This document shows, in pieces, positions 15,890-62,837 of a stretch of DNA of 64,000 bases. Position numbers and translations under genes: made by a program. Every line of letters starts with the position of its first letter. Positions within the stretch are counted from its first letter, which is position 1. The stretch spans positions 1 through 64,000 of the forward strand of contig JASAMV010006058.1 in NCBI GenBank assembly GCA_030248065.1, read 5' to 3'. A model generated the notes under the pieces. It did no database searches, was not told the origin of the DNA, and was given only the letters and a program-made list of their open reading frames with translations. Source of the stretch: Rhynchonema sp. JSB1_4. Taxonomy: Eukaryota; Nematoda; Chromadorea; Monhysterida; Xyalidae.

Positions 15890-18800
15890 TCACGAGCCTT
15901 CGACATCGAGATAGAAATCATCAGGTGCATACGAACTGTTGTCCACTTCATTATCCATTATCAGTCCGGCCTCTTCGAGTTGACTGCGTTTGCTCGCCTG
16001 ATGTTGCAAGGAGGGGAACTTTTGAAATACGAACATGAATGGATGAAGTAAAACGGAGACCAAGTTTTTCTAAATAAAGACGTGCTCGGTGGTCTTAAGC
16101 TGATTGACAAAAACCGCTTTTTGAACTGAGCACGTTTCGGCATGCCATATACTGTAGGTGAAAATTCGCTTTTACCCGATGCTTATTTAATTTTCGAAAA
16201 CTTCGTGCTTTTTAAAGCTTGAGTCCGAAACTCTTCAATCGACGCACAGGCGCACGTAGCGCGCGAAGATTTTGTTCTTTTTGGACTTGCGGTTACTGGA
16301 GTCCAGGGGAAATTGCACATATGACGCGCTAAGTGCGCAATTTTTTTGCCATTTAATACCTGCAGGAGTGAAAACCTTGCGATTTTTGCAGTGATTCGCA
16401 CTTGTTTGGCTCAAAGCAGCAGTGTTCAGGTTTCTCAAATGAGGGCGCCATGGCGTGTATGGCGCCCCCTTCCTACGCCACTGCCTTCTTCACAAATGTC
16501 GAAACGCGGGTTCTGTTTCTTTCCAGAAAACCTCATGCCTACAATAGAATTCGTAACCGACGCCAAAGTTTGCCAGCACGCACATACAGTGAATATTAGT
16601 TCTTATAGTGACCGAAAATACCGGTTGCCGACTCTGCGAGCATACAGAGGAAGAGTGTGAGCGTGTCCTGTCTGTGTACGTACCTTCGGCGGTCGTTTCC
16701 CATCGCAACATTGCTGCACATACTTGTCAAACAGCCATATCGTCTGTCGCACAGTTGGCATGACCGAGCTGTCCATCAATGTTTGTGCGTCGAATCCCGG
16801 CTGTTCGCGCAGCCAACGTTCGTGAAAGGCGCGGGCTGCCGGCGGACGCATACCGTTGGCGAAGTACGACCGGAATTGGCACATTGTCTGCAATGGAGTG
16901 GGGGGCACAAGTGTGGATGAATGGATAGTGGTACAGTGACAGGACAGTAGCAGTGCTCATCATCGCCATTGGGAGCTTCAGTCGACACTAACACTCACTA
17001 CATCCATGGTCAGGCCTAAACATGAGCGCTCGTCGTAAGATCAAGCCCAAGCGTAAACAACTAAAATACGTGCGAACAGGCTACCAACCGGTGTCAAACT
17101 TGGTGATCTGATAGGAAACGGCGGCATTTGTCTTGGCAACACATTTTTTTCTTGAAATATCCTGCACACTAAACTAGCACGAAATCGTGACCGATTCGAT
17201 TCGATCACCAAGTTCAACACCGCCGCTGATGTTTCATACCTTCTTGGACACACGACGTCTTTGTAGCTCTTTCTCCCCGAGTCTATGATTGTGTCTGCGT
17301 GACATCCGTATGATACATATATCGTTGCGAACCTGAAAGTAAATGTTGTGAATGAAACATCTGTCAGCAACAACACATCTAAATTCAAATAAATAAAACA
17401 AATTAAAAACAATTCTAAATTTTAATGACTTACATTGAACGTCAGCCGTGCCTTACAATCGAGATTGTGACTGTTTTTATCGTCAGCTGGCAGTCGTTTG
17501 TATGTGGATGAGAAACGGCACACATACGAGAGGTAGAGAGGGTTGGACGGGGTCCTGAAACAGATGTTTTCGGAGCAGATGTTCATCTGGTGCACTGCAT
17601 TCGCGTGATGATGCCCCGGTCCACCGCAAGTGGGAAAATCAAGTCAAAACGGGAAACCAAAAAAGACGCAAATGGCAAAATCACGAATCAAAAATAAAAC
17701 TAGAAAAACAGAAATCAATGAAACAGTCAACAAACTTGTTTATCACCGATGCCTTTATATTCCAATCAGTGCTTGATTTCGAACAGTACTCCTGCAGCCA
17801 TTGCTTGATTTGGTCACGTGACGACATGTCACATTCCAATAACAGCTCTTCGGGGTCGAAACTGCCAGCGGGTATGGTTGCTGTAGACAGAAACAGAAGG
17901 GTTTTGCCGTTATCGTCCCGGTCGATCCGATCTTGCATTGATAGTGTGACGTTCTGCACCGGCGATATTTCGAGATTTACTATTTGTCACTAATTGCCAT
18001 TAGCGAATCAATATGTAAAAGGTGTTTATTCAGTGTTGGTTAAAGTTAGAGTTAACGACTTTTACAGTTGGTTAAAGTTAGTGCCGGCACTAGTAAATCT
18101 CGAAATACAGGAAACACAAAGTCACGCGAACAAAGCAAGATCGGATCGATCGCCGTGTGTTGTTGGAACCCCAGTGCCACGCACAATTCAGTGCTGTGTT
18201 GTAACAAGTGGGCACATCAGCAAAGTCCTCCACTCGAGGCATGTCATTCTTGACGAATGGATTTCGAGCCAACTGCATTTTCTGTCGCATCAACGTCGGT
18301 AGTGAACGTGGACTGCGCATTCGACGACGATGCTGACTGGTTGAGTAACGGGTTACGGTAGTTGAGTCCTGGTCTGGAACCGGCCCGAAAGCAGACGGTG
18401 AGCTGACAAGGTGCTCGTTCTCGAACTGATGACGCTGCACATCGATGCCCTGTGAGAAACAAGCAGCCAGGTTACACAAACACAGACATGATAACAGATT
18501 GATTTATTACGTCACCGACACCACACACGAAACACTGAACAATTTGTTGCGCAGCAACCAAAAATAACTGACATCAAAGATTCCGTATCTACCTGGTCTT
18601 CGTGTCTACGCTTGCGTCTAGTTGCGGCAACGAAATCCAGAGATGTTTCACTCTTCAGTTCAAGCACGCCAAGTTGGGGTTCCGGTTCAGGTTCCACCTG
18701 CAGCTCAGAATCCATGCCCAATTTGTCGGTGACATCGGTGCACGCGAACAGACGGCGCACTGGATACAGTTTTGTCGAAGTTTCAGTGCTGGAAAATGAA

Positions 18801-19053
18801 GTGCTTCTACCAGCTGTCACGTGTTCGTTTAAAGTGGCTCACACAATCTCAACAGGGGCAGACAGACAGGCGGCAGTGCACGATGTGCAGCCACTCACCG
18901 ATGTGCGTGCGCGCACTCAATGTGTGCCTGAATGTAATTCCTTGGGTACAGTGCCACACAATGCTCACATTCTGCGTACAACAGCACGACCGCATCGGGG
19001 TCGGTGAACAAATCGATCGGCGCCTCGACTACTTCGTGATCGTTGACTGACAT
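15890..19053 (-). CDS. A13: CARF-like zinc-finger array gene
   Basis: Eight exons: 19053-18899, 18788-18593, 18449-18185, 17880-17736, 17554-17434, 17332-17240, 16887-16684, 15997-15890; all phases agree; 428 aa. C2H2-like finger at residues 29-49 (CEHC ... H-x4-H). The linker carries RRLFACTDV and a LKSE SUMO-type motif and ends at VPTCYNTALN (about residue 205). Core module at 206-325: DQIKQWLQEYCSKSSTDWN, then VCRFSST, NLDCKARLTF and RRHNHRLG (the H-x-H pair). Helical module 326-393 (FRSYFANGMRPPAARAFHE). The acidic tail is degenerate (SSYAPDDFYLDVEGS). Its core is split into three exons, more than in most copies. Poly-A signal near 15783. Role inferred: nuclear DNA-binding regulator. Confidence 0.75.
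16170..16484. mobile_element. partial hAT-like element in A13 intron 7
   Basis: The right end CCTACGCCACTG (ending 16484) is the reverse of a CAGTGGCGTAGG terminus, and CG palindromes lie at 16251-16266 and near 16324-16338. No left end or target duplication was found, so the left limit given is arbitrary and the element is probably truncated. Confidence 0.4.
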
Positions 19054-19371: not shown

Positions 19372-22300
19372 CTAAATATCAGGCAGCACGTCTTCATCTT
19401 CCAATCTGGCATCATAACCGCCCGTCTTTTGTTCCTGAAAGCGATGTGCGTTGCAGCAGATGTCATCAAACAAGTGTACCTACTAAAACAATGTAATGAA
19501 GCAGTGGCATCAAATATGATGACCGACCATCGTAAAAAGCTAGCTTCGACTAGCGTAAAAGTCATTCATACCTCGGGCCTGATGCCGTATTCTTTTACGA
19601 ATTTCTCATAGATCGTCTTGATCTGCCTGAGCGTCGGCATGATAGTGCTGTCATTCAGCCAATCAGCGACGAACCCGTGACGTGACCGCAGTTTTCGTTC
19701 GTGATGCGCGCGGGCCGCCGCGACACGCAAACCCGCCGAGAAGTAGGACTCGAATTCGTGCACCGTCTGTGATATGGTGGGTTTGGATACGATTAGTGCA
19801 TGTGGTAATGGTGGTGATCGCAGGTAGGGATCGGCGTCGGTGTCGGAAAAAGGTCGATGTCGGTACCGAAACTACTAAAGTCAGTGGCGGTCCACATGAC
19901 GGACGCCGATCCCTAACTGCAAGGACATCGCTTTAAAAAATCAGAATTACATTCGCGGTGCCCACGCTTGAACCCATGATTGCGCTAAACGACGGCATTG
20001 AATCTGCGTTGGTCACGCAATTTTTGTGTGATGCCACTAATTTTTCCAAATTTTCCAAATGCCACTAATTTCGACCAGTGTAAAAGTAGTTCCCAAACTA
20101 AACAACTTGTGTCCTGGTTGACAAAATGGGCATCAGTAAACTTCACAACATTCTGAATAAAAAAAGCTCACGTTATCAAGGCGGGTTCAACAAGTTCGAT
20201 ACCGGCGTTAGTGAAGTAAAGGCAAACTACAATGAGCTCGATCTCGCAGCTGGCAGAATGGTGAAACATTCTGACGTGGCTGCTGATTTGGGAAATGTGA
20301 CACGTTAAAGAATACAAAATGGAGCATGATGATTTTCTATTTCTATTCGTTTTGAACACACAACACCTTCGAAATCGGGCTCGTGTTGGCGTAGTTTGCC
20401 TTTAACTTTTGTGCCCCTCCCCATTATACACCTTTCTGGACGCGGGCTTTGTAGTGAGTTGCCTTCGATGCCCAATCGGATGAGAATGTCTTCTGCCAAT
20501 CCTAATCACACAATAATTGTCCGTGCGAATATTAAACATCAACTGTGCTTTGCAGTCCAGGTTCAATTGCCTGTCCTTGCATTTGTTCTGATTCGAGTTC
20601 GAGTACCGACAGAGGTATCTGAAATTTCGGGTGTATCGAATGACAGCAGTGATGTAGTTGGTCAAGTAGAGCCAGGACCTACCTGGCAAGTTTTGGATTT
20701 TTGGGGGTGGTATTTTAGAATAAAGTAAGTTTCTAATTTCATTGCCTCATGCGTTTTTACAGGCGCAGGGAAACTCTAAGTCGAGACAGGCAACAAGCTC
20801 AGCGCACAGTCAACAAGCAGCTAAGACACACAGCTTGTGTGACTGAAACATTCGAAACGCTCGGCACGCGAGCCAGCTACGTGGTAGCTCGACCCAGCTG
20901 CCCCACTTAGATCACCGAGTGATGTTTCATTCCTACTCAAATTGGAACATCAACCAGAAAGTCATCTACATAATGGTCTTTATCAAACTTGATGATCACG
21001 ATCACCTAGGGTCCCGTCGGCCCGGGTCTTGGAACCGCAATATTTTTGTATTCGGGATCTTTGAGATTGCCGATGCCAGTATTTGCGATTCAAACAATCT
21101 TGTCTATTACGTCGGGGCACAACTTTAGCGCTGTTCGATAATACATTCCAATACATTCAACAATACGGCGCCTAATACTTTCCCAAGCATCCACTGGATG
21201 TTGACAGATCCGGTCACCAACATTACCGCTCAACAATCGTACAAAGCGCACTCACTGACAATATTGCTTTGACAAGGCGTTGCGATTGAGTTTCGACGTG
21301 GTCAGCACCCAATTCGTACCCGATTTATCCGATAATTCATCCACCCATTCCTTCATCTGGTCCTTGTCCTGTATGCTGCATCTCAATGTCACTTCGTCAG
21401 CATCACACGGTTGCAGCGATGCGCTCGGACGGGTTGCTGAAAATTTCAGCTACAGTCCAGTCTCCATATAGTTAACTGATCGGGACGGGAACCGGACTTT
21501 TCGTTCACTATCCATAATATCATAACACTGTGGTACAATACAAAGTGGTATGATTACAAGATTAAGGACAAACTGGGAACTAAACTGATGTATGTATATG
21601 AACATAGAACACAACCATGCTAGAAGTAGTATTTACTCAGGTTATCTAATGCAGGCTCAACATTAAGAGGGTTGACTGGATTCGATTCTCTTCAACCAAT
21701 GCGCATGAAAACACAGCTAACGGCAGTGTTATGTTAGTGGGCTACATCATTTGCATCTACAAAATACATGAAGCTAACAGCATACTGCTATCATGCCCGC
21801 CGATAGGAACAGCAACAGACTGGCAAGTCATTCAGTCAACACAAGTGCGTATAAACCGACCCAACAACTCCACATTGTAGCTGGTAGGGATATCGGGAAA
21901 GTCCATGATGGCCAAACTGCACTTTGGATCGTGCACCGAATTATCCCGTCGGCAGCGATATGTTCGTTTCCTCTTCTTTGTTGTTGTCAAGTCCTGGTCT
22001 GACCCCGAAAACACATCTGTGACCGAGTCGTCTGGATCTGGAAATTAACGTAATAATATAAAAAGGAGGAATGCAGCAACAATAGTCGACTCACCCATAT
22101 CTTCATTCAGCAAGTTATCCGAAACAGTGGCTTCTGATTTGACCACATCATAACATCCATTGGGAGCAGCTGATTTGTCACGCAGCTCAGTCACGGCGAA
22201 GAAGCGACGCATTCGATTGTGTAGGTCGGATGGTGCGCTGAAACATTAGCGGAGTACTTTGATTATTTGGATACAGTCCACCCCTTTTATGGTGACATGA

Positions 22301-22653
22301 GTCAGTAACTCACAAAAACGAAAATTCACTGAATTGAATGGTGATCAGGTCAGGAAGATCGGGTAGGGTGCCAATACAAAAACATCGTTCAAAAGGCATT
22401 ACGATATGAATGGACTCACTATGCGACCGTCATTATACTCCTGTCACACACATGAACAACAATGCTACTCATGTATTCAAGACCGGATATCTGACTCAGC
22501 AACTCACCAAATATCCTGTTGATGCCCCAATCTTCTGTGTGGCTCAATCGTGTCCACCGAAAACAATCCGTAGCAGAACTCGCACTCCGTGTAGATCAAC
22601 ACATCGGAGTCAAGCTCGATTGAGGCGTTACTAGGCGACACGATTGGCTCCAT
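19372..22653 (-). CDS. A12: CARF-like zinc-finger array gene
   Basis: Seven exons: 22653-22508, 22237-22095, 22037-21861, 21436-21256, 20618-20432, 19766-19572, 19434-19372; phases 2, 1, 1, 2, 0, 0; 363 aa, the shortest full member. Finger at residues 24-44 (CEFC ... H-x4-H). Linker: RRFFAVTEL, a VKSE motif, then MDFPDIPTSYNVELLG ending near 155. Core: DQMKEWVDELSDKSGTNW, CRYSNSN, NLDCKAQLMF, then RRHSHPIG. Helical module FESYFSAGLRVAAARAHHE; tail GGYDARLEDEDVLPDI. The core's Cys and H-x-H segments share one exon (class II). A reverse-strand AATAAA at 19217-19212 lies about 155 bp past the stop. Intron 5 holds a small inverted-repeat element at 19825-19915. Confidence 0.8.
19825..19915. mobile_element. 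small inverted-repeat element
   Basis: The ends TAGGGATCGGCGTC and GACGCCGATCCCTA are inverted repeats around TCGG-rich sequence, inside A12 intron 5. The flanking 8-mers (ATCGCAGG / ACTGCAAG) match only 5 of 8, so the target duplication is doubtful. Sequence around 3906-3968 and 6435-6485 looks like a relative. Confidence 0.5.
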
Positions 22654-23116: not shown

Positions 23117-25736
23117 TCAGAGATCGGCCACAAGTTCACCCATCATTGATTCATCTTCAAGTTCGGGGTCATACGGTCCTTGCGGCACCAGACCCTGCAA
23201 ACAGTTATGAAATGACAAAATATAGAAACTTTGACACTTGTGGATGTTACCAGTTCTGAACAGCACAAAAAGTTGCTTGCAGACAATGAATGCAAAACTG
23301 TTTCGTTCAGCGGTGTCTAGTGTGACGTCATCACGATGTCTCGGTATCTGCTTGAGACAAAGAGTCACGTGACCAAGACCGCACCATCCCCTGGTCTGTA
23401 AATACAGCCAGAAGACTCACCGACAACACCCGCTTGGTCTTGTTGCATTCACTGATGTACTTCTTGTACAACGTGCCCACTTGACTTGGTTTCGGCACGG
23501 TGTGCAACATCTGCGGCTTGTAGTCCTGACGTTCTTTGAGTGATTTGATGTGATGCTGCAGTGCCACTGTGGGTTTCATGCCGCTAGCGAAGTACGACTC
23601 GAACTGACGCGCTACCTGCAGTCATCACGGAAATGTCTGTACCCGTTGTAAGACATCAGCCAGCTAGCCAACCAACCTCTCTCAACACACCCCTCCGTTC
23701 GCCCTCGCCAGTCGCGTGCGAATGTTTGGGATTCAGTTTGATCACGCAAAGATCGTCCACTCGAACGCTGAATGTGACAAATGCCTGCAAAGGATGGATG
23801 AAATCTGTTAATATTATCCTGATACTTCAAAGGGAAGGACTACACATCAACCACTATGCATAAAATATGGAACATTGTTCACAGCGATATAGTATGTAGT
23901 GACGAAACAAAATGACGGGTCAATCCAGACTATGTCGTCATAAAGAGCGTATAGTGACAAAACGAACCGACATTTATTCCTGTTATCATCCCCATTGTCC
24001 ACCTCACCTGGCAATCCAAATTATCAATTTTCTTCGATATTTTCCGCATTGGCGAGTGATTGGCGTGTCTGCACTTAAACTGTTGATAGTGCCTGATGTT
24101 GGTGCTGGTCTTGCCCGATGCAGTCAACAGCCAACTCGTCCCAGACCTGCCGTATGCGTTTTTTGTTCACCGATTTATCGGTTGCAACTTGTTCATGAGA
24201 ACGCAAGCAAAAACCATAGCCGACCTGGCCATATAAGCGTTCAACCATTCCTTGATGTGCTCTTTCGTCTGCAGCTCAGTGCGCATCACCAACACATCAC
24301 AGCACTCGGCGTCGTCAACACCCGAAGGTTGCGTATCTATACAGAAAACGTCAAACATTAACTTCCATTAATTAATTCAAATTAAGAGCGCTATAATTGT
24401 CCCGGCTGTTTGACTCGTAAATGAAATCGAAGACCGTGACTTGGCAAAGCCATGGTCACCACGAGTGAAATACACGTGGCATTGGAATGCATCGGACGCT
24501 TTCATGCGTGCATCAGATCTGTTTTTCTCACGTGACTTTTTTAGTTCAAAGGACTTCGATAATCTACTGACATTTAGTTATTTCAACCAGAGTTCAAGTT
24601 GTTTATATAATGGCTGTCAGAAAACTGGTCAAAATCAGAACGTTCAGCGAATCTCGAAATTCTCCTGATTCGATAAAGTCACGTGACAGGGGCACAACGG
24701 CAAACCTCAATATCTCACCGCTGTCGCATCACTGTATATAAACAACACGAACCAACTAATATAGTATCGAACATGGTGGGCATTTGCGGGAAGTCGTTCA
24801 ACGTCAACTTCAGTTCTGCGTCGGGCTCCGGCGGTGGGGGCAGCTCCGTGGCCCGCGCGTACGGACGAGCCCAACGACGTTTCTTCGATTGTGGCAGTTG
24901 TGCTTTGTGCGCATCGATCTTCATTTTCATCAACTCCGACAGACCCAACGGTGCCCCAGTGCTGCATCGCGGTGTCACGAATGAAACATCAGCGTTGAAC
25001 ACCCTGTGCTGTTTGTGCCGTCGTCTCCAGTGCGAGGAGTTTTTGGGTTCAACGCCAAAATTTGGCACCACGCTAATTATGGGCGATTTTCTCTTCGGTT
25101 CACAGTAAGTGGATTCACATGTGGAGGAGGAAGCATTGTCATCATCCGAGTCTACACTGGTCAAATACGCTGGTCGATTGACATGACGAACACCGTTGTC
25201 GAGCACAACACGTCCCGCGCGCACAGGCACATCACAATGGTCAATTGGGGTGACTGCGAACTGACGACACACGGAGCGCTGACGGAGGGAACGGGAGCTG
25301 CAATGGATGGAAGGGGGATGTTGGGCCGGACCAAGTCAGCATTCGCACTGATGATGTCCCACTGCACCGTCCGCCTGTGAAAACATGACTAAACAGACTA
25401 AATTCACTGCTGTTATGTCATTGCCGATATTACGGTCAGTATCATACAGTGATCGGGTTTGCTCGTGCGACTAACTTTAACCAGCGTGAAGGTTCCCTTG
25501 TTCTAGCTGTTTTAGTGAACAAGCTACGCTGATCCCAAATTTAGTGGCATCTGTTTTCCGGAATGATCGTGAAGTACGTAGCAAACGAGTTAATCAACTC
25601 ACTGTTGATCACATTCATGCTGGTGCAGTCTCAAATGTGCGTCCAACGAGCTGTGTGGGAACAGTCCATCACAGTAATCACACTCCGTGTACACCAACAC
25701 GGCGCAATCGGCCTCATAGGATTGCTCAATTGACAT
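23117..25736 (-). CDS. A11: CARF-like zinc-finger array gene
   Basis: Seven exons: 25736-25603, 25297-24753, 24336-24225, 24146-24008, 23784-23677, 23615-23421, 23194-23117; phases agree throughout; 436 aa. Finger C19-x2-C22-x11-H34, with the last His at 38 or 40 (HLRLHQH), slightly different spacing from its neighbours. Linker: RQFAVTPID, a basic KKRRWARPYARA stretch, and FPQMPTMFDTILVG ending near 226. Core: EHIKEWLNAYMARSGTSW, KCRHANHSP, NLDCQAFVTF, KHSHATG. Helical module FESYFASGMKPTVALQHH; tail GPYDPELEDESMMGELVADL. Intron 3 is only 78 nt (24224-24147); without it the frame hits a stop. The second exon has an in-frame acceptor choice (TTGCAG at 25298) that restores homology. Confidence 0.8.
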
Positions 25737-26048: not shown

Positions 26049-28973
26049 CTACCGATGAACGTCGCTGGGCTCCGTTTTCACTTCCCCTTCATGCCCAAAT
26101 GTCTGCCCGGGTTCCAATTGTTCGCTTTCCACTTGTTCCAGTTTGGATTCATCTTCCAGCTCGGGGTCATATAATCCGCGAGGCACACCTGACTAAAATG
26201 AAAGAAATGGATGGTCATTCGTACGTTGTTGGCCGATATCAAAAATTCTTTTTCGGTACGCTCTGGTCGGGCCTCGATGTTGTATTTGGATTGAAATGCA
26301 TTCGAATACATTTATTGCCACTCATTTTGACCAGCATGATTGTTGGCTTTCATTTTCATAAGCGATTACACCTTCTATGCTGTTGAAATTTCTACCGTCA
26401 ACAAATAACCCAAAACATTGTCAACGCCAACCCGCGGGACCAGGGCAATCCGGGCCGGTCGACCACCGCGTTTCACATGCCTTCCGTAACAGACAAAACA
26501 CAAAAACGGCCAATCTCACCAATTTGCATTTATTGTAATTCTTGAATAGGGTGATCACTTTGCTCAACGATGGCACCACATTTGGGTCTTCCAGCATTTT
26601 CGCCTCAAAATCGTGTCTTTGCCTCAACAGTCGAATGTGATGTGCCAGTGCGCGCGACGGACGCAGACCACCAGCAAAATAGGAGTCGAATGACAAGGCC
26701 GTCTGCAAAATATTTCCAATCTGCAAAACTACTAAACTCCAAAAATTAAAAGCTGCTGATGGGATGTACAATGTTATCAAATTTGGTGATCCGATCAGGG
26801 AATTGCTTTGGCATACAATGAGCATACTTCGAGATTCACTGCTGCCACCAGTTCCCACCGGCGTAAAATTTGTTCGTGGAGAGCCTGACTAGTGACGCAA
26901 ATCTCTTTGTCGTTTATCAAAAGTCACGAGGCCGCCAAGACAGATCCGATGCTATCGAATCACCAAGTGTGAAAGTCTTGAAAATGGAAAGTCGAAAAAC
27001 GAAAAGTACAGACTTCTTGATATACACCCTTCGGTTTGTACGTTACATCCTTGAAGCCAACAACGTGGGAATGCTTGCGTTGCAATTTGATCATACAGCC
27101 ACTGTCACGAACGATAAATGTGATATGGGACTGAAATTCGGATAGAAGGCGTGCACATGCCACAAAGACACTAAAATATGCCGGAAAACACGACAGCACC
27201 CGGCGGACACTCTTCGACAAATGTTCTACCAAAAGCTAGCGCACGATTGTAATTTTGGATGGTTTACTGAAAAGAAACACCAACCTTGCATCCGAGGCAC
27301 ATAGACTTTGGTGACACCTGTTGTCTGACAGCAACCGAGTCGGAGTACCTGTCGATGCGTCACGCATGATCAAATGATTGACCACTTGAAAATATTTAGA
27401 TATTGGCCAGTATCAAACATGGCGATCGGTCCGGTGCCGGTCTTGCTGTGATCACGTGACTTTATATACACTGATTATGCTGTCCAGATATGCTCCTGCC
27501 ACTATATTCAATCAGCTATACCAGCAAATCTCTAAATATCCTTGACAAACAGTCATATTGTCAAGGATATACCGGATCGATTAGAGCATGTTTGCTATCT
27601 GCCATCACACATGCCGCGCTCAACGATGTATGCGTTTTGCCCGGTTCGACCAGCTTCCCCATACGGGCGGTGCACCAAGCCATCGTCAGCGCGAATGCAT
27701 TATGTATTCGCCAACCTGCACATGTACTGACTGTAGTGTTTGGTGGTCTTGTTCTTGTTCGGTTTGCTAGTGACCGACTGCCATTTGGCACCAGTGTTCT
27801 GCTCCAATTTCTCCACCCAGACTTTGATCGACTGTCGATCCGCTATCGTGCTGATCATCAACAACGTTGACACGTCACACGCATTCGTGGCTGTGGACGG
27901 CTCGACTGCTGCAACGACGTCAAGTGAATTGGCGGCACAACATGCTCTTTTGATCGTGAAACGCTCGATAGTGACGGGCTTGGGTGAAATAGGTATAATC
28001 ACAATCAGTATAAAGAGGGTGGACTTGGACTTTTGTACCCAGTTACGGGAACACGGCAGATCCCATCTGACAATCAGGTTTGATGGCCCTCACTGAGACA
28101 AAGCAGCCACCAAGATATCAAACGTACCCAACAATTGCGTTTCATAACAGGTCGGCACCTCCGGGAACATATGCAATGTGAGTGCTGTCGGTTGTACGGT
28201 CATACCAATGGGGAACAACATGTTCCGACGCGTGCGTGGCGCCCAGCGAGCCTTCTTCCTACTTTTCGGGTAATTGTTCTTGCGTTGACGAGCGCGGCCC
28301 ATTGAATCCACATGCACGGTGCTGGTGTTGGCGCACTGTTTGCGCTTCGCAGCTAGTCTGGCTGACGTTTTCGGTCTGTAGTCACGCTCGTAATCGGAAT
28401 CGTTGTCAGAACTTGACGCTCCATCGTCCTTTGAGCCACCCTGTGAGTCTGGCACGTCCCTCAGCAGACTGGTAAAATTGTTCTCGATTGCTGGTTCCTG
28501 TTCGCAGCCGGGCAATTCCGTCACAGCGAACAGTCGACGTCGCGATGGAGTTGACCTGAAGAGGGGGGGAACCGGTTATCACGGACACATGGCGTACCAG
28601 CTGATCGTCAGTGCACTCCAGTTGCTGTTATTTTTACTCTGACGATCTACGATTCCCACGGCACAGGGGCCAGGGATTTTGTTCAATGCAAATACTTACG
28701 GACGAAGTATGCATATACATATAACAATATGATGACGACAGATTGGAATTGGACACAAAACTGTCTGCCACTATGCAAAGGTTTTCACTGCCCAAGGCAA
28801 CAACACAATGTAACGTACCGCGTATCAATACAATCGACATGTCCCAACTTGACATGTGCACCAATCGTGCCTTGCGGGAACAGGCCACAACAATGTTCGC
28901 ATTCAATGTACACATACACGTCGGCCACTGCACTAGTGAACACACTCAGATCCAATTTGAATGTTTCGGTCAT
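26049..28973 (-). CDS. A10: CARF-like zinc-finger array gene
   Basis: Seven exons: 28973-28819, 28555-28128, 27908-27716, 27348-27285, 27130-27014, 26702-26520, 26192-26049; phases 2, 1, 2, 0, 0, 0; 427 aa. Finger at residues 25-45 (CEHC ... H-x4-H). Linker: RRRLFAVTEL, acid patch DDGASSSDNDSDYERDY, basic KKARWAPRTRR, then FPEVPTCYETQLLG near 194. Core: QSIKVWVEKLEQNTGAKW, SQYMCRYSDSV, MCLGCK, then RKHSHVVG; the Cys pair sits on a 64-nt exon. Helical module FDSYFAGGLRPSRALAHH. The tail is longest in the family: YDPELEDESKLEQVESEQ, then a VKTEPSD SUMO-type motif. The last exon needs the acceptor TTTTAG rather than the nearby TCAG to stay in the homologous frame. Confidence 0.78.
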
Positions 28974-50310: not shown

Positions 50311-53300
50311 TCAGACTTCGGTCATAATTTCTTCGTCCTCATATCTCGGGTCGTAAGCGCCCCAATCCTGTGAAAAAAAGCACTGTTTTGTTAAAAAATT
50401 TGCATTACATATTGCAGTTTATGTCTTTTGTTCGGAAGACAACATGTTTTGACATGAATAAAATCACGACAAACGAGTTCCAGCGTGAAATATCAGCAGA
50501 ATAATGGGCAAGTGTGACCTTTTCACAATTTGACGACGTAGTTGAGTTTATTTATTGTTTGTTTCACAGATGATTACACATTCAAATCCAATGCTCCATT
50601 TTCACCGCCCAAGGTCGTGAGCACCCGAAACAGCACCCGAATCACAGGCGTGTGAGTTGATTAGGTTTCGCGTTACAGACGAAACATCAGCAAAATTTAA
50701 AGCAAGTCTGGTTGTTCTCGCAGTTCTGATTTTGAGCACGAAGTTGGGTCCAATTACTTATTGTTTGGTCTGAGCAAAGCAAGAAACTGCGAAACAAACT
50801 CTAATTTTTCATCACAGAAAGTCATTTGCGGGTAAAAGATCAGTGAAAGCGCAAGCAAAACTGGCTGTTTTGACAACTCCTCGGAGTAACCGTTGACCAT
50901 GAAAATCTCTGCATGTAACATCAGTGCGCGTCATGCGCGTGTGAAACATCAGGAGCCAGTCAGCAATAACAACTAAATGACAAGGGCCCCCAACATACCG
51001 GCAATGGCGCGCCGTCAGCCTGCACCCCACCCGTTTTCGACACGAATCTCTTGTACAACGTGCCCAGCTGTCCAAGTGACGGCATGATAGCCCGATCCTG
51101 TAGAATCTCCTCCGTGAAACCGGGTCGCGAGCGAAGTAGCTTTTCGTGATGTTGCAATGCTGCTGTGGGGTACATGCCGGCAGCGAAGTAGGACTCGAAT
51201 TGCAGCACGGTCTGGAAAGGAACATGAAATGTCACTTGCAAAAAGCCACAAGTTTCTTTATGGTGACATAATCTGGACGCACGTTTCGTACCCTATGAAG
51301 TATATTCCCAACATAACGTTACATTAGGACGTTGGGTGCCACTAAAGCATTACAAGTATTCACTATTGAAGGTTTCACCGGAAACAGCTTACTTGCGAAG
51401 GTACACTGTCCCAGAGCCAAAATAATATCAACACGAAACAAATGTTTCGTTGCCAATGTAAAGCGTACAATAGTAACGAATTTCAAGCTAATGTTGACTG
51501 GAATGCAACAGAAAACAACCCAAGAAGCATCTCAATTCATCAAGATCATAGGTTACAGCTTGTCCGCTGCACAAAAGAGCCAAAGACACGAACCTCTTTA
51601 GGCACAGCCTTTGAGTACATTTTCCTGTGTTCACCCAGCGGATGTGTGTGTTTTCGTTCGAATTTCACCACACAATAGTTCTTGTCCGTTCGAACATTGA
51701 ACACAATTTGCGCTTGGCATTCCAGGTTCTGTTTTTCATCGGGCACCTGCGCAAATCAAGTATGTGCATCACATGTTTTCAGCCGCCAGCCAACTTCACT
51801 TTTTGCATAATCACAAACGTCAGTTCAGCTGACCTTTCGTAAACTAGCGACCTTCCTCGAGTATTTGCATTTGTACTGCGAATAGTGCGAGCTGTTATGG
51901 TATTTGTTGGGTTTGCTGGTCACGAGATTCCAAACAGTGCCCGATTTATTCGCCATTTCTTCAACCCAGTCACGTATCTGGTCTTTGTCACGAACATCAG
52001 ACCTGAGCAGCAGAGTGTCGACGCGATCCGTTGATGTTGCATCCGTCGGTTTGGTGGCTGCAGAGCAAGTTGACTGACGTTTCAAGTGCTTATTCATACT
52101 TGAGTTCTTTTTTCTGGGGTACTGTCACATTGAAAAAATTTCAGTGCGCAGTTTCGAGACCAATTTCCTCACGCACCAGCTGGCATAGGCATTCTGAAGT
52201 ATACATCAGCCTCCATCCAATCCGACCAACTGGGTTACACAATTGCACAGAGTTGCTTGTGACAACTTGCGCCGCCCTTTCATTGGATCACAATGAATCA
52301 ATCACAAACTTACAATATATTCTCTTCCTGTCTGTTGACTATTTTCCTGTGATAGCTCTGTCCTACATCGGTCACTTGGCATTACCCATGTCAAACGAAA
52401 CCAATAATTTCCATGAATAATATGCTTGCACATTTTATGATGGCGAACTCAAATAGCCCTCACCCCAACCCCACTCACCAAGCAATGAGGTTCCAAAAGA
52501 GAGTGGTATTTCAGGGAAGCTGTCCAACGTGAGTGAACAAGCAACGGTGTGTTCTGTGGGGTCCCATTTTCTCACGTATCTTCGTCTCGGTCCGACTGTT
52601 TTGTAGTCGTATTTATACTTCTTTTTCACTTTGTTCTTCGTTCGAAGGCTGCGACGCGTGGTTTTGGTGGGTGTACGAGTGTTCTCCTCTTCTGAACTGA
52701 AATACAGAAAAGACGAATAAATTATGACATCATTTTGTTGCATCTTGTTACGCGTTTTCTAAAGACCAGAGAGAGAAGTACGCATTATATATAAGTCCTA
52801 GCTGGCCTAACAACAAGTGCTGACGGATCACACATTTGAGCTTGAGTATCGAAAGCGAAAACTGGGATTTGAAGCGCAAGGCAAGTTTGTACAATTTTAT
52901 TAAATTTTCTACTGGCCACCACACATTTGTTTGCCTGTTCAATAACAGCATCCTATATACCAACGTAAAAACTCGCTTTGACCAAAGTCGCAAGGTTATT
53001 GTTGCCAAGGAACCACCATTAGGTACAAGTGACTTAAAATCGTGGTTCTGAATTTCGGCAGCAAAAACGCCAATATATTCCGTGAAAAAGGCAAACTACT
53101 GTTTTTATCCATGCAGCAATCCAAACCAACCCGGACTGTTCATTATAATTGGGCGTGCCTGTGGTCCACGAGCCATCGAGTGCTGCGCGCCCAGCAGGGG
53201 TGAGGAAATTGGGTAGTAGCAAATCAGCCAGATCAGGCTCAACGCTATCCACTATTTCGGACTTTGTCGGTGTCTTGCCGTCGTGCACAGGCGCGTCGCA

Positions 53301-53914
53301 ACCGTTCTCGAATGCAACCAGGCCGTCGTTGTTCACCTGTCACACAACATGGGCATTGTTGAGGTATAATCATCAAATATGTCCAGTTTTTGGGTACCTG
53401 GCCAAAAGCAGGAGCGAGCTAACTCAAATTTTGGTGGCAAACTCAGAATGAACATGATCAGCGACTGACTCGCCTACGCAACTTCTGAATCAGAAATACT
53501 TTCCGAAATATTTCGGTAGCGTGAGAAATGCTTTTAGTACGGTACCTATACAGATCAGATTATGACATTTGATCAGAGAAAGCCTTCCGCGTGAAACCAA
53601 CAAAACTGCAATCCAGTTGTAACTTGCCTTCACTTTCTGACTGTTCAACTCGGTCACAGCAAATATCCGTCGACAAGAGCGTCGGCGTTTTGGTTCAGAG
53701 CTGCAACAATTAGTGACATTCGTCGAAAAATACATCTAAAACATCATAACAGACCAATTATTTCACAGACGCACCTAGTCTCATTCTCATGCCCGACCCT
53801 TGTGTGCGACTCAATCGAATTCTGCGGGAACAATCCATCACAATATTCACATTCGGTATAAACAAGTACATTTGAATCCAGATCCACGCTCTTCGGTTGT
53901 GCAGCAACTGCCAT
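50311..53914 (-). CDS. A3: CARF-like zinc-finger array gene
   Basis: Eight exons: 53914-53775, 53700-53628, 53336-53131, 52696-52479, 52057-51834, 51746-51594, 51211-50999, 50367-50311; phases 2, 0, 2, 1, 0, 0, 0; 427 aa. Finger at residues 22-42. The linker is split over three exons: RRRSCRRIFAVTEL, an acidic piece, then KKKYKYDYK and DSFPEIPLSFGTSLLG near 212. Core: DQIRDWVEEMANKSGTVW, SHYSQYKCKYSRK, NLECQAQIVF, RKHTHPLG. Helical module FESYFAAGMYPTAALQHHEK; tail WGAYDPRYEDEEIMTEV. The intron after exon 2 uses a GC donor (AAG then GCAAGT). Reverse-strand AATAAA at 50185-50180. Confidence 0.8.
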
Positions 53915-54416: not shown

Positions 54417-57400
54417 CTAAAAGTCGGCCATCATTGCTTCGTCCTCTAGTCGGGGGTCGTATGAGCCGGGTTTGACCGGTGTCTGAAGGAGCTTCGCACA
54501 TGCAATTTCTATTTTCAGTCATGGTATCGTGGACCTAAGCTGTAACTTACATAGCCTGCATTTTTACAGTGGCAAATTGAGAAGCTGTGTTTTGGTCATC
54601 GTAAAGATATTATCTATTTTGAGTGAAATTTAGGAGGCTGACGACAGATTTGGCACCAAAATATCGTTCAACGATATTCATCATATGGAAGGATTCTCTG
54701 CACAGAGCGTCCCAACAAAGAGAGAGCACTGTATTTCGAACTTACCACACTGGCATCTTTGTTCAAAATTTCAACTGAACCCGAACTCATTCCAACCCCC
54801 GAACTAACCACGGACGGTGCCTTCCCATTACAGAAATCCCTGATGTATTTTTTGAACAGCCAGCTGACTTGACCGAGTGTGGGCATTATGGCTCGATCAA
54901 CCAATATCTCTTCAGTGAAACTGTCCCTGGATCGAAGCATTTTCTCGTGATGCGCTAACGCCGCCGTCGGACGCATGCCAGCGTTGAAATACAACTCGAA
55001 TTGCATAGATGTCTGAAGACGATTTTTTTGACCGAAGATATTTTATGAGCATATTGCGGCTCATTTCCTCAATAGATGTTACGGCGGTCTCACGAAAATC
55101 GGGACAAACACGTGTGCTCTGCAACTGGGCGATGCAGGTGTCATGCGTGCATGAACGGAATTGTAGACAAATGGCCCAGGTTTTCCTGTTTCAAATAAAG
55201 CTATAGATGCCGCCTTAGATTATGGCAAGAAATTAGCAGTACCTATTCTTTTATGTGCCGAAAAGACATTCCGTCTACGTGCCTTTGTAACCTAAAGCTG
55301 AAGGCGTAACCTATGTTTGAATTTTGATTTAAGCGCCAAGTCGGCTACATTCAGCAAAAACACTGGTCCCACTGCGACACAACGCACCTCCTTAGCCACC
55401 GGTCTGGTGCCCACTTCCGTCACACTAATATCGTGTGTGTGATTTCTGCCGAATTTAATAACGCAACAATTGTCCTTTCGAATATTGAACGCAATCCGGG
55501 CACGACATTTGAGATCTTTGCATCGCGTGAACGTCTTCCGTGTTTTGTTATTGACACTCGAAAATCGACAGAAATACGTCGCGTATCTGTAATCGGAGCT
55601 CTCAATGAACAGTGATAGTTAGTTAGTTTATAGCGTCAACACCCACTCAATAATACATAAATAAGAAGATTAAGTGAAAGAAGCATAATTACAAGACCGG
55701 GTGTGGAGTTTACGGACATGAAAATAAATACAAAACAGGGTGTTACGGGAATGAAAAATGAATACAAAATGAACAGTGATCGAATCGAAATGGATCTGTC
55801 TTGGTCACGTGAGGTTCTTGTTGGAAGGATATTTTGAAATTAACAGGTGCGACTAATTTCGATCAATGTACAACTAGTGGCACCTTAAAAGATCGTGGAA
55901 AGGCTAAAATAAGAAAAAACACCCACTAACAGCTTTGATATACTGCTTCGATTGAGTTTATTCGTGGTAAGTAGCCAATTAGTACCCGATTTGACAGCGA
56001 GATCATCCAACCAATCCTTGATGTGGTCTTTGTTCTCGATTTTGTTTTTCAGCAAAAGGTCAATCGGCTCGCCATGGGCGCCCGCTTTGGTCGCTGGAAT
56101 TGTGAAATAACAGATGTTAGTTTTCCTTTCTATTTTTATGCATTTTTCTATTTTTAAGCACTTATGGTTTGCTGGTAGCTACGTTGCCAAACATAATTGG
56201 TCTCTTTCTTAAACTATTTTACTATTGCTTCCTTTTAGGTTACCAACATTATCCTAATTCACTTTCTTCACTTTCTAATTCTTTAATTCTTCTTCAATTA
56301 GCTCTTTTGTTCACAACTAATCTTTTTTCATACTCTCGCACCCTTTATGCAACTGAGCGACCGTACTCAATAAAAAGTGGTTCAAAACGGGGATATCCTC
56401 CAGTGCAGGGTCTTTTTTTCAAAATTTACTAGGTGCAACTTAGGTGCAACCCCCCAATTTTCAGGTGCAAGCTGGCCAAAGTAGGTGCAAGCCCTACTTT
56501 GAATAAAAAAACGCCGATTTTAGGTGTTTTTTGCCTGGTCATGCGTTTTAATGCTATTTGCGTGCTTTTAGAAGTTCAACAAAGTTGGAACGCAATGAAT
56601 AGTCGCTTTCCCAAGCATGCTTATTACCAATACCAGGTACTAACTGTGCGCAAATGCAATCAGACCAATAAATATTTTTTGTCGATGTCGACCAAACACC
56701 AAAGCAGAGGTCGCAATCGGGCCGCGATTTTGGGCTTTTGGCTCGGGCCGGGCCCGGCCCGAAGCTTCTGAAGTGACCTATTTTACTGAAAAAAGTAGGG
56801 ATTTTTTTGTCAAAAATACTAAAATTTCTGACGGATTCGGCAAGTAAGTGATCAGTATTGTCCAGTGGTGTAGCTACCCAGGCGGGGCGGCAACCTACTG
56901 TACCACTAAAATGTGGGGCGACAACCTACCTACCAGTGGTGTGGCTACCCAGGCGTGCAATCAACCTACTGTACCACCAGAAAGGCCTGCAATCAACCTA
57001 CCTGCTGTACCGGCCGAGCTAGGGGGGAACAAAATTTTTGACGTCTAAATTTTGATGAAAATGTGCTCTAAAATCCTAATTTCGCGCGCATCGCGCGACT
57101 TTTCGCCTATTTGGAGTGAAAAATATCGATTTTATACCAAGGGGTACCTAACCTACTGTACCAAGGGGGACCCCACCCCCTGCTGCACCATTGGTATTGT
57201 CTATCTGACGACTTTTTAGGAAAACAATGAATTTTCAACCAAAAAAATTGGCTCAAAAATTCGCAAAAATTATGACAAAAATTGGGTTAAAATCTGAGCC
57301 AAAAATTCGGGCCGGGCCGGGCCGGAGATTTGGGGGTTCGGGCCGGGCCGGGCTGGAGATTTGGGGGTTCGGGTCGGGCCGGGCCGGAGATTTGAGGGCT

Positions 57401-59071
57401 CTTTGAGGGCCCGATTGCGACCTCTGCACCAAAGGTTTCGATGGAATTTAGTGGAAGGAACGAAGAAGCCGCGCAGCGCATTTTTTTTCGTTTCTAAGGT
57501 TTTCGAACCTTAAAAGATGCTGTATAAATGCTAAATTAAGGAAATAAGGGCTCAAAATGTTAGGTGCAAGCTTGCACCTAACCCTGAATTTTTAGGTGCA
57601 ATTCTGATTTTTTAGGTGCAAATTGCACCTAAAAAGTGTCTAAAAAAACTATGCTCCAGTGACATCAATGCCATCAGTGCAGAAACATAGCTTGACTTAT
57701 ACACATAAAATCAACATGATGTCTCAGTGTACGATTTTACAGAACTCACACCACATGGCATAAATGGGATTCACCTCTAACATAAGATGTCGAAAACACG
57801 TTTGCATTTCCAGAAATACGTTCGCTGCCGTTGCACGCGGTACCTTTTCTTGGACCACTATCACCACCAACCTAACAATTCGGTGTCATAGCTGGTAGGC
57901 AATTCCGGGAAATCTCCCAACGTGTAGGCACAATTCGAGTCTCGCACTGGTATCGCATCAGACACCCGTTGTTTGTATTTCTTGTACGGACCGCGTCGAC
58001 TGGAACGTCGCCCTGATGATGACGTGTAGGACGTCCGTTTCTTTCCGACCGGCTTCAGATCAGGAGCGTAGTCTTGGTCAGAGTCGGAACTTTGCTCGGC
58101 CGCACCTGCATAGATGGTATCAAGCGTGGCGAATAGATCAAACTTGCCTAGATTTGTTCGCAGTTGTTGTGCATAATTTCGATGCCACAAATGCCGTTTT
58201 TCTTGACCAGCGTGAGACCTGTTCACAGTTACCAAGGTACGGTACGACCGATCAACCACCCAATTTGGAACCGGCCACTATGAAAGGACCAAACTGCTGA
58301 CAACATCGCGTAAGGTTCGACTACAGGGGAAAAGTACGGATAAAACTGACCTATATTTTCATCGACTCCAGCATTCAGTCCACTGCCACTCGGTTGGGCA
58401 TCGAACATCGGCAACGACCCGTTGACAACCGGTGCGGCTTTGGCCTCACTCTTGACCACTTTGTCCAACAATTCGGTGACCGCAAACAGTCGGCGACCGC
58501 GCAGCAATAGGTGCTCACTGGAAAGAAAATCACAATAAAGCATCAAATTATATCCAATTTTTCAAAAACTTTTCATAAAACCACTTTATTACACGCTCTC
58601 GCATTTACTAAGCAACTGCAAGCAAGCTCAATGTGGCATTGTAGGCCCCTGGAGTTTATGACGGGGACACGATTCAAGTTCATGTCTAATATTCCACGTA
58701 AGCACCACCATGTTTGATGAGATGGACATGAAAGGTGTATAGCAGTGTTTTATTGTTTTTTTTATAAATGTGAGCAATATTTATAATAATAGAGTAGTCT
58801 CAAACTTTCGGACCCTATCACGAGACTATGTCACAATGCACCCGGGTCCTCATCAGTCATGAGATGCATCGCTGGCATCCTGGTAATTTACAGCAGGCAA
58901 CGCGGTAACGCTGAACACTAACTTGTCAAACACATCGTGTCCCACCCTGACGTGCGAGTCAATTGTCTCGGCCGAGAACAGTCCAGTGCAATACTCACAC
59001 TCGCTGTAGATCATAACGGCCGAGTCGAGATCCGGTTCCAAGCCGGGACGTGGACAAACCACCGAAGCCAT
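54417..59071 (-). CDS. A2: CARF-like zinc-finger array gene
   Basis: Seven exons: 59071-58923, 58517-58351, 58105-57872, 56093-55931, 55586-55388, 55012-54746, 54482-54417; phases 2, 1, 1, 2, 0, 0; 414 aa. Finger at residues 25-45 (CEYC ... H-x4-H). Linker: RRLFAVTEL, VVKSEA, acid patch SSDSDQDYAPD, Arg/Lys-rich patch, then GDFPELPTSYDTELLG near 183. Core: DHIKDWLDDLAVKSGTNW, LYATYFCRFSS, CKDLKCRARIAF, RNHTHDI. Helical module FELYFNAGMRPTAALAHHEK; tail GSYDPRLEDEAMMADF. Intron 3 (57871-56094) is swollen by a three-layer transposon nest. An alternative upstream ATG lies at 59101. Confidence 0.82.
56705..57426. mobile_element. hAT-like element with GGGCCGGGCCG repeats, middle layer of nest 3
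   Basis: The ends CAGAGGTCGCAATCGGGCC and its near-perfect complement are flanked by a perfect 8-bp duplication, CACCAAAG (56697-56704 and 57427-57434). GGGCCGGGCCGG units sit near both ends. A relative is probably the partial element ending at 7106. It hosts 56863-57193. Confidence 0.9.
56863..57193. mobile_element. hAT-like MITE, inner layer of nest 3
   Basis: The ends CAGTGGTGTAGCTACC and (reverse complement) CAATGGTGCAGCAGG are flanked by a perfect 8-bp duplication, GTATTGTC (56855-56862 and 57194-57201). It holds CAACCTACTGTACC units and a CG palindrome at 57083-57098, as in 5646-6113. Confidence 0.9.
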
Positions 59072-59280
59072 TTTCGGGTTCTTTTGGAAATAATTCTTCA
59101 TGAAATTTCGAAATCACAGGTCTCAGACACGCAAGTATTCCGTGGTTAATTACCAGGCTGGAAATCACAACCATAATTGCAAACCAAATCAGTTGCATAC
59201 TTTATATACTTTATCGTCACAACTTGTTCACAAAGGTAAGAATACTGAAAACGTTTAAGCATGTGCACAGTTATTTATGA

Positions 59281-62200
59281 TCACGGCTTGCCCTCCGCCC
59301 AGCGCTTGTTGCGCGCTTCGATGTGTTTTTGTGACATTTTTCTCTGAAAAAACAAAACAAACATCAAAACACCCTCCCTTTTTGGACAAAACCGCTCCAG
59401 AAAAGTAAATACCTTCGGTTTCACTCCGTTGCAATGCGTTTGCACCCAGAATTCATAAATTTCCCTAATTTTATTCGGAGTCGGCATCATCGAAGCGTCA
59501 TGCAGCATGTTCTCAGTGAAATTTGGCAACGAACGGAGATATTTTTCGTGCTCCTCCCTCGCCGCTGTACAGCCCATGTGTGCAGCGAAATATCCATGGA
59601 ATCGGGCGATAATCTGAACGTATAACTAAACGACATCAAGCATGGAAAGCGGATCGGATTGGCCCTGTACACTTCAAAGGCTCAAAAATTGCAGATGCAC
59701 CCATTTCCATAAAACATGGCTGCCGCGTGCGCAAAAAGTGCAAAATTTTCGCCGCGCGCACGCCTTTTTTCTGTTGTATTTGGCCTAGAAATGCCCAATT
59801 ATAAACAAGCACTGGATAAAAACCATTTTTGAAAAATCAAACATGATCAAAAATCAAGCTGGATAAAAATGACTTTTGGGATTTGGCCCCCCTTGGCTGG
59901 ATCCGCCACGGTCAGTGTAAAAAAGCGCAAGACAACCCAGATTAATCCAGATTTTACGAAACAATCAGCGTACAAAGTCAAACAATAACTGTCTAACCTC
60001 TCTGTTGACCTCTTTGCGCAATCCATGCGTCGTGCCGCCCTTCGGATGATCATTGTGATTCAGATGCATTATGATGTCACATGATCGGCCCGCCGTCTTG
60101 AACTTGATACGCGCCGGACAATCGTTGTTGTATTTGCACGTTGCGTATCTGGCATATCAAACAAATTTCAAATACGAATAATATTAGTGCACAAAAAGAA
60201 ATTCTGCATGGCAGATCACAATCTTGGTGATCGTCCAATCCGATCTGGCCTTGGTGCCGTGACCATTTGTCATTTTTTACGAAATTTACTGGCAAGCAGT
60301 GGTAATTTCGATCAGCAGTAGGTTGTCTGGGCACAACTAGGGCTAGAGGGATGTCGGGTGCCAAAAAAGTGTAATGTCGGGCGTCGGGTTTTTTTGGGAC
60401 CCGACACCGACACGTACGGTTCAAAACATCAGTTTTGCCGAGTGAATAATTTAGAGAAAATTTTCTTCGAACCAAATGTTTCCGAAGACGCAGAATGTGA
60501 TACCTTGGTGTTTTATTCGCTTGAAAAAACTTGAATCGGGCGTGGGGTATTTTTAGAACTGTCGGCCGTCGGCTTTTTTCTCAGATATTGGGTGCTTCCA
60601 GATGTCAGGTGTCGGGTACCCCCCGACCTCTAACCCAAGGAACAACTTCAATTTTCACGCTCGTCGAAATCAGTGCCATCAGTAAATTTCCAACACATCC
60701 TGCACACAAAATGTCACGTAAACAAGGCAAAGCCCAGTCGGAACTAGAGCGAATTTGTCCGCATGCCAAGCAAAGCAATCATCAACTTTGGTAATGGCAG
60801 TCAGTGTTGCAGTTTGTTGGACGAACAATATGCTACCACCCACCGAGCCACGACTGCCCAGAGGCGAACAACACCAAATGCCTGACTTGTTTGTTTTCCT
60901 TGAGTAATATCGACAATAGAACACCGCACTCATTGATCGACTGCTGCCCGTCTTCCCGCCAACCGCCCAGCCCGACGCCGATTTAGTCGTGTACTCCGTC
61001 ACCCAACGTTTCATTTGTTCGTGTGTCCAGATTTTGGCGCGCAGTCGTAGCTCGGTTTCACTCTCGTTTTTGGCTGCATAATTTTGAGTTTTTTGATTTG
61101 GCATATGGAAAAAAAATAAATTGGAAGCCAAGGGCTTTGATATTTCGTCAAGTTTCTTCATCCACTATCAAAATTGGTGATCGGTCGGATTAACCGGTCT
61201 CAATTGATTTGCCGAGCACCAAGTTTGGGTACCGGTTTTGATGTTTTGCGCAGCCTCCAGATTCAAGTTCTACACGGTTTCGTTCGTTTCGTTTTTCGTT
61301 TCGTTTTACTTTTCATGGTTATGACCACAAGGAACATGCGCAATATAATCATCACGGTTTTTTATTTCAACTGGCAAGCGATTCATCCAAAGATATATAC
61401 CAGCTTGCATCTCACAACACAAGGCCATAGTCAAACCAGACTAACCAACTAATTTCGTATCCATAATCCTGGGTATTTCCTTCAATTCATCTGCATCGAA
61501 TGGTCGTGCCTTCATACTGCGGTAATCGACCACAATTTTACCAGTCTTTTTTTTCAGCAGCAATGCACCGCTCGAGCCCTGTTCCGTCAGCAGACCACTT
61601 TCATTCACAATGTCGTTACACAATGGCTGGATTGGGATTTGAGCTGGGTCGCATTCCAGTGATGATTCAACTTTGATGACCGGTTGGACCGACGATGTGG
61701 GTGCTGAAGGTATGATCAGATGGAGCTGTTGACACACACAGGCTACTCGTGACACAAACATCGTGTTCGACTGGCGTGAGTGAATGTCTTGATGCATCAG
61801 TTATTGGAAACTATTTTTATGCTGGTCGAAATTCGGACTCTTTCGTGCAAATACGAAACCAAGACACGATCGACTAAGACAAAGCTTGATACCGGCTCAT
61901 TTGTCTATTATTTTTGTCATACCACTTTGGGAACGCGTTTAATTTGCATCTGAAAATTGCGAAGTCAGGTCCAGGTGCCGCATTTTGACCATTGCAAATC
62001 GCACTTGAAAACATGAGACTCACACGAAGTAGACGCAGTCGTTGCCATATCATCACTATCCGACATCAATTTCCGAGGCGATTTGGATTTGCGTCGATTC
62101 GCACTGTCGACATTGTTCGTTTGTGGTGGTGATTCGGTGACCAGATCTGCATCTGCAAACAGCGCCAGCTCACGCGGTTAGTTAGCCTGACAGATAAATT

Positions 62201-62837
62201 TTGGGCATAAGGTACTAAAAAGACAATGGGCATGCCTAAATCAAGTTTTGTAATCGGTGCGCTCCGGTTTCGCTTTGGTGACGAGACTATTCGTGCTGTG
62301 AATTGAATATCAGGTATACAGTGATGCCACTAATTTAGACCAAACGAGAAAGTTGTCGCGACAATTCATGGCCCACGACCACTGCAGTGACATTGCGCCA
62401 CAGTAAATCCTACTGTCTGTCTGGCCGTTTTGCCGCAAAATTCACACGCCCACAGGACCGAGCCGATCACTAAGTTTGCTGTTAGATAGCATGATCATGG
62501 TGGCGCACCCTCATTATTCTTGCCAGCAGCATCAGATGCTGCCGATTCCGTAGATGTGCTGCGTCCGGTCTCCCTATCAACCAATGAACTCGGTGAAACA
62601 TCAGCAATCACAATCGATTGGTCAGTATTGGTGCGCAAAGCGACTTCGTTTGAAACCTCCGGGGACGACAGCGGTGTTGAGACACTTGTTCGCCCTTCCA
62701 TCATTGCACGCAGCCAAGGTCTGCGAAGAAATAGCAAGCAATGAAGACATCCCAAAAGACGAGAAAGCACAGCGAGCAAGGGTGACGGGTAACCGCCCGG
62801 GTTCAGCCGGTATCGGAATTGAAACCGATTCGAACAT
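59281..62837 (-). CDS. A1: divergent CARF-like array gene without the zinc finger
   Basis: Eight exons: 62837-62794 (tentative), 62720-62509, 62152-62024, 61703-61446, 61073-60887, 60148-59998, 59613-59413, 59343-59281; all phases agree; 414 aa. No C-x2-C finger exon was found; the tentative first exon (MFESVSIPIPAEPGR) is supported only by ATG, donor and phase. Linker: Ser/Thr-rich, VIKVESS (SUMO-type), then LKEIPRIMDTKLVG. Core: EQMKRWVTEYTTKS, FYCRYYSRKTNK, CKYNNDCPARIKF, HLNHNDHPKGG (H-x-N-x-x-H variant spacing). Helical module FHGYFAAHMGCTAAREEHEK. The tail is basic (RNKRWAEGKP), lacking YDPELEDE. Intron 5 carries a GTCGGGTG element (60338-60638). The most diverged copy; may have lost or changed function. 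Confidence 0.7.
59680..59910. mobile_element. probable partial hAT-like element in A1 intron 6
   Basis: The right part (GGATTTGGCCCCCCTTGGC, then GGATCCGCCAC) matches the right end of 14194-15478, and CG-rich GCGCGC sequence lies at 59715-59760. The terminus is altered (CCACGGTCAGTG) and no target duplication was found. Confidence 0.5.
60338..60638. mobile_element. second copy of the TCGGGTG MITE in A1 intron 5
   Basis: The ends TAGGGCTAGAGGGATGTCGG and CCCCGACCTCTAACCCAA match those of 1245-1743. Flanking 8-mers GGCACAAC (60330-60337) and GGAACAAC (60639-60646) match 7 of 8. Shorter and more diverged than the first copy. Confidence 0.8.

Follow-up and report, generated by a model that had tools for sequence, protein, structure and literature searches.

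We analysed a window of 64,000 nucleotides from the nematode Rhynchonema sp. JSB1_4 (contig JASAMV010006058.1, positions 1 to 64,000), which makes up nearly all of this 64,326-base contig (C3705) in a 204 Mb assembly. From about 15.9 to 61.8 kb, the minus strand carries thirteen related genes, g01 to g13, arranged head to tail. Their predicted proteins follow one module order: a finger exon (E1), an exon beginning near an LFAVT-like motif, a linker with a DFPxxPTxYDTxLLG-like sequence at its end, E4 with two tryptophans, E5 with the residues C, C, and H-x-H, E6, and a tail of the YxPELEDE type. The genes, together with five exons of the reference model g10, are as follows.

g01, 15890..19053, minus strand: 8 exons; last exon 15890-15997, with a YAPDDF tail, placed by hand (the alignment gave 15768-15791)
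g02, 19372..22653, minus strand: 7 exons, complete module order
g03, 23117..25736, minus strand: 7 exons
g04, 26049..28973, minus strand: 7 exons; the tail holds a VKTEP motif
g05, 29279..32465, minus strand: 7 exons; the linker holds an IKCEP motif
g06, 32739..35007, minus strand: degenerate, 5 exons
g07, 35318..38626, minus strand: 7 exons; IKTEP and IKSEP motifs; closest partner is g08
g08, 38887..42169, minus strand: 7 exons; IKTEP and IKSEP motifs
g09, 42509..46399, minus strand: 7 exons
g10, 46840..49727, minus strand: 7 exons, 416 amino acids; reference model
g11, 50311..53914, minus strand: 7 exons; its core gives the best FAR1 match
g12, 54417..59101, minus strand: 7 exons; weak AFT match
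g13, 59410..61800, minus strand: partial; E6 59410-59613, E5 59998-60147, E4 60889-61071
E1 of g10, 49585..49727, minus strand: finger C-x2-C-x3-F-x4-L-x2-H-x4-H; no Pfam match
E4 of g10, 48279..48465, minus strand: W240 and W252; first half of the zinc domain
E5 of g10, 47729..47900, minus strand: putative zinc ligands C273, C292, H314, and H316
E6 of g10, 47116..47310, minus strand: predicted four-helix domain, predicted local distance difference test (pLDDT) 92.5
E7 of g10, 46840..46908, minus strand: acidic tail GYDPLLEDETMMEEL

A tandem array of thirteen genes

A single E6 query recovers 13 modules in the window, all of them on the minus strand, at E 8.3e-7 or better. Profile searches return 13 matches for E6 (E 8.3e-23 or better; next-best 0.73) and 12 for the finger exon (E 9.6e-16 or better; next-best 0.31), although these profiles are not independent, having been trained on 12 of 13 and 10 of 12 of their own targets. 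The independent test is leave-one-out alignment with a purpose-written spliced profile aligner applied to each unit: the genes score 258-705, whereas the plus strand of this DNA reaches 41-69 and 6-mer block shuffles reach 49-74 (best of three). The array is therefore real, and the thirteen same-strand, head-to-tail paralogues described in an earlier note on this DNA stand, as do its shared module order, with the ligands W..C..C..HxH followed by GxxPxxAL, and its view of one family expanded in tandem.

Twelve full models lack internal stops, each with the 5 to 8 exons that had been claimed (5 in g06, 8 in g01, and 7 in the remaining ten), so that of the thirteen gene models proposed earlier twelve are retained in full, one of them, g06, degenerate, while g13 is partial. 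In g06, E5 and E6 are joined without an intron, the second His of HxH (the last putative zinc ligand) is gone, and an acidic tail exon was looked for and not found. The consistent intron phases proposed earlier hold where positions were left free, with a phase-0 intron 5' of E6 in 12 of 13 genes and 3' of it in 11 of 13. Our scripts fixed the phases of the first intron and of the one preceding E4 and admitted GT-AG introns only, so these features are not independent evidence. The left border at 15890 is the stop of g01, in agreement with the earlier note. Its right border of 62837 has to be drawn back to 61800, the last supportable base, because a profile search of the g13 region yields no finger exon (best E 2.3); an exon end of the PRIMDTKLVG type lies there inside an open reading frame at 61444-61800. 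From stop to next ATG, the 11 gaps among the twelve models (15890-59101) measure only 260-583 bases. Polyadenylation signals lie 3' of five of the twelve genes, without excess (p 0.19), and acceptors 5' of start codons only marginally outscore those at random ATGs (p 0.008); the array may undergo operon-like processing. No SL1 sequence turned up, but the search for it gave no signal anywhere and so has no bearing on the matter.

The protein modules and their relatives

The putative ligands C, C, and H-x-H occur in order in 12 of the 13 window genes, g06 lacking the last His, and the His pair of g13 is spaced one residue wider. Among 20 aligned members, W240, C292, H314, A347, and P373 are invariant, and in g07 and g08 the second E4 Trp is replaced by Tyr. 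The E6 consensus is YFxxGMxPxxALxHHEKxL...DRxxMP. Twelve finger exons, read by eye, contain the pattern C-x2-C-x3-[FY]-x4-[LIV]-x2-H-x3-5-H; the four tested have no Pfam match. Linkers contain nine psi-K-x-E motifs in seven members (shuffle mean 2.2) and six psi-K-x-E-P motifs in four members (shuffle mean 0.12), with one more of the latter in the g04 tail, some of these sites being common by descent. Eleven of 12 linkers have basic stretches, and the C-terminal 25 residues are net acidic by at least 3 in 9 of 12 models, counted with the g01 tail as first aligned, before its hand placement. Within the zinc domain, loops are more variable (2.3-2.5 bits) than strands (1.5-1.7 bits) among the thirteen genes. 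In predicted structures, the four-helix domain of E6 has as its best, weak matches a transpososome chain and the SETMAR DNA-binding domain, and a fragment model of the zinc core (four strands, pLDDT 69) has no fold match: Foldseek returned nothing at E<=0.001 for either model, and VIA-align no match for the zinc fragment. FLYWCH, GCM, and WRKY structures are absent among the matches listed, which excludes nothing.

No listed Pfam match, every DNA-binding family included, exceeds its curated cut-off. Among 20 members, several match FAR1 (5 of 20), ZSWIM3_N (3 of 20), or AFT (2 of 20), and 13 further families are matched by one member each. We take FAR1, ZSWIM3_N, and AFT (the last a fungal iron regulator) to be WRKY-GCM1-type zinc domains of one superfamily, a class tied to transposons, FAR1-type domains being found in Mutator-like elements (MULEs) too. 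The best FAR1 E-value among the 20 members is 0.0017, and the core of g11 alone reaches 2.8e-4 (22.0 bits, cut-off 28.1), its half with the second Cys and HxH matching positions 48-88 of 90 in FAR1/FHY3 (PF03101); FAR1, suggested earlier as a family to compare, thus remains a lead, though under the cut-off. Among ten single cores, one from contig C2699 matches positions 52-88 of 102 in ZSWIM3_N (PF21599; E 0.063, likewise under its cut-off), and AFT (PF08731) is matched weakly but over nearly its complete profile, 2-92 of 92 in g02 (E 0.04) and 2-91 in g12 (E 0.08). A genome search with ZSWIM3_N gave one match, E 1.34, on another contig. Unlike FAR1/FHY3 and ZSWIM3_N, the window family forms intron-rich tandem arrays, with no neighbouring MULE domain found.

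The other memberships considered in the earlier note fail at the Pfam level. ALS2CR8 (PF15299), the CARF domain, matches none of the 20 members at E<=5 and nothing in a six-frame genome search; a more remote kinship with CARF is possible. FLYWCH (PF04500) matches none of the 20 members and none of the ten cores; its eight genome matches all fall on contigs other than that of the window, and it exceeds its cut-off at two other loci. None of the ten genome matches to MULE (PF10551) falls on the window contig. On contigs C2915 and C5047, two loci have FLYWCH and MULE matches near each other, likely a Mutator-like element. Neither the g10 model (E<=10) nor the 20-member profile (E<=1) found a match in protein databases, searches of phage and plasmid sequences were uninformative, and Protein Data Bank sequence searches with profiles gave no matches or chance-like ones only.

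A targeted search found three uncharacterised fish proteins of the si:dkey-75a21.2 type (Scomber japonicus; Pampus argenteus), one of which bears that name. The family profile aligns with si:dkey-75a21.2 in hhalign at E 3.6e-10 over 157 columns (reversed control 0.33; best of 30 shuffles 0.15), and the alignment with all three fish proteins spans 158 columns. Among 55 cores, the fish profile matches g10 at E 9.7e-10 and, best of all, C4817_6565 at E 2.8e-11; the E6 portion by itself gives a weak match (E 0.0015, probability 17%). When all six frames of the genome were searched with the fish protein, a single weak match came up (E 0.19, contig C3645), as expected because the exons are short and divergent. 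The likeness runs through the entire core, W..W..C..C..HxH then GHTPSSAL..DRSICPD..LYYK, but identity is about 23%, an insertion separates the second Cys from HxH in the fish protein, and the ends are unaligned. si:dkey-75a21.2 is the best relative found and, judged by sequence comparison, its core is homologous over the zinc core and the helical domain; it has no ALS2CR8 match of its own. No published report of the window family or of si:dkey-75a21.2 was found among the matches listed.

The family across the genome and its evolution

Two E6 queries run on the genome gave 48 and 52 matches which, merged and with g06 added by hand, place the E6 module at no fewer than 60 sites on nine contigs, a count that omits some modules found by alignment and is probably inflated because contigs C2699 and C4817 overlap. 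These two have common blocks of 299-7322 bases, 94-100% identical and rearranged, and are probably two haplotypes. In the stretches examined on other contigs, 42 of 43 profile matches are plus-strand, the exception being the minus-strand match on C463. That contig carries, at 36-46 kb, a divergent member of the family that stands apart from the larger arrays and sits on a long branch in the tree.

Many genes outside the window (contigs C2699, C1861, C1125, and C3319) contain two E6 modules. In a module tree of 65 columns only, the second copies and the single modules of five C3398 genes group in one clade (100/98), at whose base stands the first copy of C1861_11298 (98/87), and the window modules cluster with first copies on C1125 and C3319 (83/80); the first copies are not one clade. 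The tree suggests an ancestral two-module gene followed by reciprocal losses.

Among 35 cores, the window genes form one clade with moderate support (89/90). The pair g07/g08 has a synonymous divergence (dS) of 1.21 and a ratio of nonsynonymous to synonymous divergence (dN/dS) of 0.26, with no exon above 0.60, and in the other three of the four pairs compared (g10/g11, g11/g12, and g05/g09) silent sites are saturated and give no sign of a recent burst. The array is old and, where this is measurable (the one pair g07/g08), constrained by purifying selection. Tree depth in the window falls with distance from the array centre (rho -0.97, p 5e-5), and the same test on seven C3398 genes gives rho -0.69 (p 0.049). 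This is at most a hint that the array grew from its centre, with the younger genes central, because the test was picked after inspection of the tree and raw identities disagree (rho -0.01 between mean identity and distance from the centre; Mantel p 0.067 for identity versus separation).

Several features lie apart from the genes. To the left of the array, window positions 8565-9760 and 14473-15125 hold recent duplicate blocks whose main pairs are 90-97% identical and about 5.4-5.9 kb apart; dense satellite of the GGTATTGG type fills 4039-5081 on both strands; and one 87-base repeat, 86% identical, occurs near both contig ends (1420-1506 and 60450-60536), possibly a dispersed mobile element. 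Elsewhere in the genome, a universal 18S word occurs at 11 places. One of these is a full 18S gene (1729 bits) that has exact sites of both nematode primers given in PMC9437051 and PMC4699195, and an 18S-like copy on C651 (809 bits), cut at one locus end, is possibly a degenerate rRNA copy. Matches to TTR-52 occur at 15 places, six of them clustered on C414 at 49.7-57.6 kb. TTR-52 is typical of nematodes, and together with the primer sites it makes a nematode host likely and a nematomorph improbable.

An old family of candidate DNA-binding regulators

The thirteen paralogues probably constitute a family of nuclear DNA-binding regulators that arose by tandem duplication in this nematode, and an old, multi-array expansion of such a family is our best reading. 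Its direct support consists of the gene structure, the common modules, the conservation of C/C/HxH, the selection on g07/g08, the fish homology, and the further arrays. The core would adopt the fold of a WRKY-GCM1/FAR1-type zinc domain and read DNA, and the four-helix domain after it could provide a second, helix-turn-helix-like DNA contact. Basic linker segments would direct nuclear import, the psi-K-x-E-P motifs may be sites of SUMO attachment and hence of repression, the acidic tail would recruit a partner, and the paralogues may split target genes among themselves. Two observations on single cores weigh against this reading: g03 matches Extensin-like_C (E 4.7e-4), and FAR1, AFT, and ZSWIM3_N all go unmatched in six of the ten.

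The modules could also belong to factors that act mainly through protein interaction, the finger and helical domain dimerising family members and DNA reading being secondary. We think this unlikely: the acidic tail and the lack of a DNA-binding Pfam family above its cut-off suit it, but similarity to FAR1, ZSWIM3_N, and AFT recurs, and the top two structural matches for E6 both come from transposition proteins bound to DNA. That the genes are not host genes but Mutator-like transposons, or what remains of them, is very improbable even though MULEs also have FAR1-type domains and two loci in the genome combine FLYWCH and MULE matches, for the window contig lacks MULE matches, twelve models are free of internal stops, dN/dS is 0.26 for g07/g08, and the arrays examined keep their same-strand order. 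Nor do we expect the genes to be CARF orthologues proper, calcium-responsive activators expanded from a single animal gene. The earlier note named the order W..C..C..HxH..GxxPxxAL as similar in ALS2CR8, and CaRF is a regulator that binds DNA directly according to PMC2877716; however, PF15299 has no match in the members, in the six frames of the genome, or in the fish relative, and CaRF-like genes, according to the same paper, number one per species examined and none in Caenorhabditis elegans.

A KZFP-like defence, in which the paralogues diversify through an arms race so that each recognises and silences its own mobile element, would fit the several expanded arrays, the SUMO-type motifs, and the variability of the zinc-domain loops. 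It also has a precedent in transposon-derived factors expanded in single lineages, including FLYWCH in ctenophores (PMC10027918), where a Mutator-tied zinc domain likewise grew in one lineage, although those expansions comprise 16 genes in each of two ctenophores and FLYWCH does not match the window family. We nevertheless doubt such a defence: relaxed constraint would also give loop variation, dN/dS stays at or below 0.60 in every exon of g07/g08, and saturation in the other pairs leaves no recent burst visible, so the conflict with mobile DNA proposed in the earlier note finds no direct support.

Beyond the old multi-array expansion of DNA-binding regulators that we prefer, we hold only tentatively, as a modest possibility, that the genome contains a wide, uncatalogued DNA-binding repertoire in same-strand arrays, with two ancestral helical modules shuffled and one of them reciprocally lost, invisible to Pfam, and possibly silencing mobile DNA. 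If the family is what we propose, Pfam-based catalogues of transcription factors would overlook a large family in this lineage, and the fish gene si:dkey-75a21.2 would gain relatives hinting at a DNA-binding role. With its sister arrays, its members of one or two modules, and a single pair that is fairly close, the family would offer a workable system for studying how tandem regulators divide their targets.

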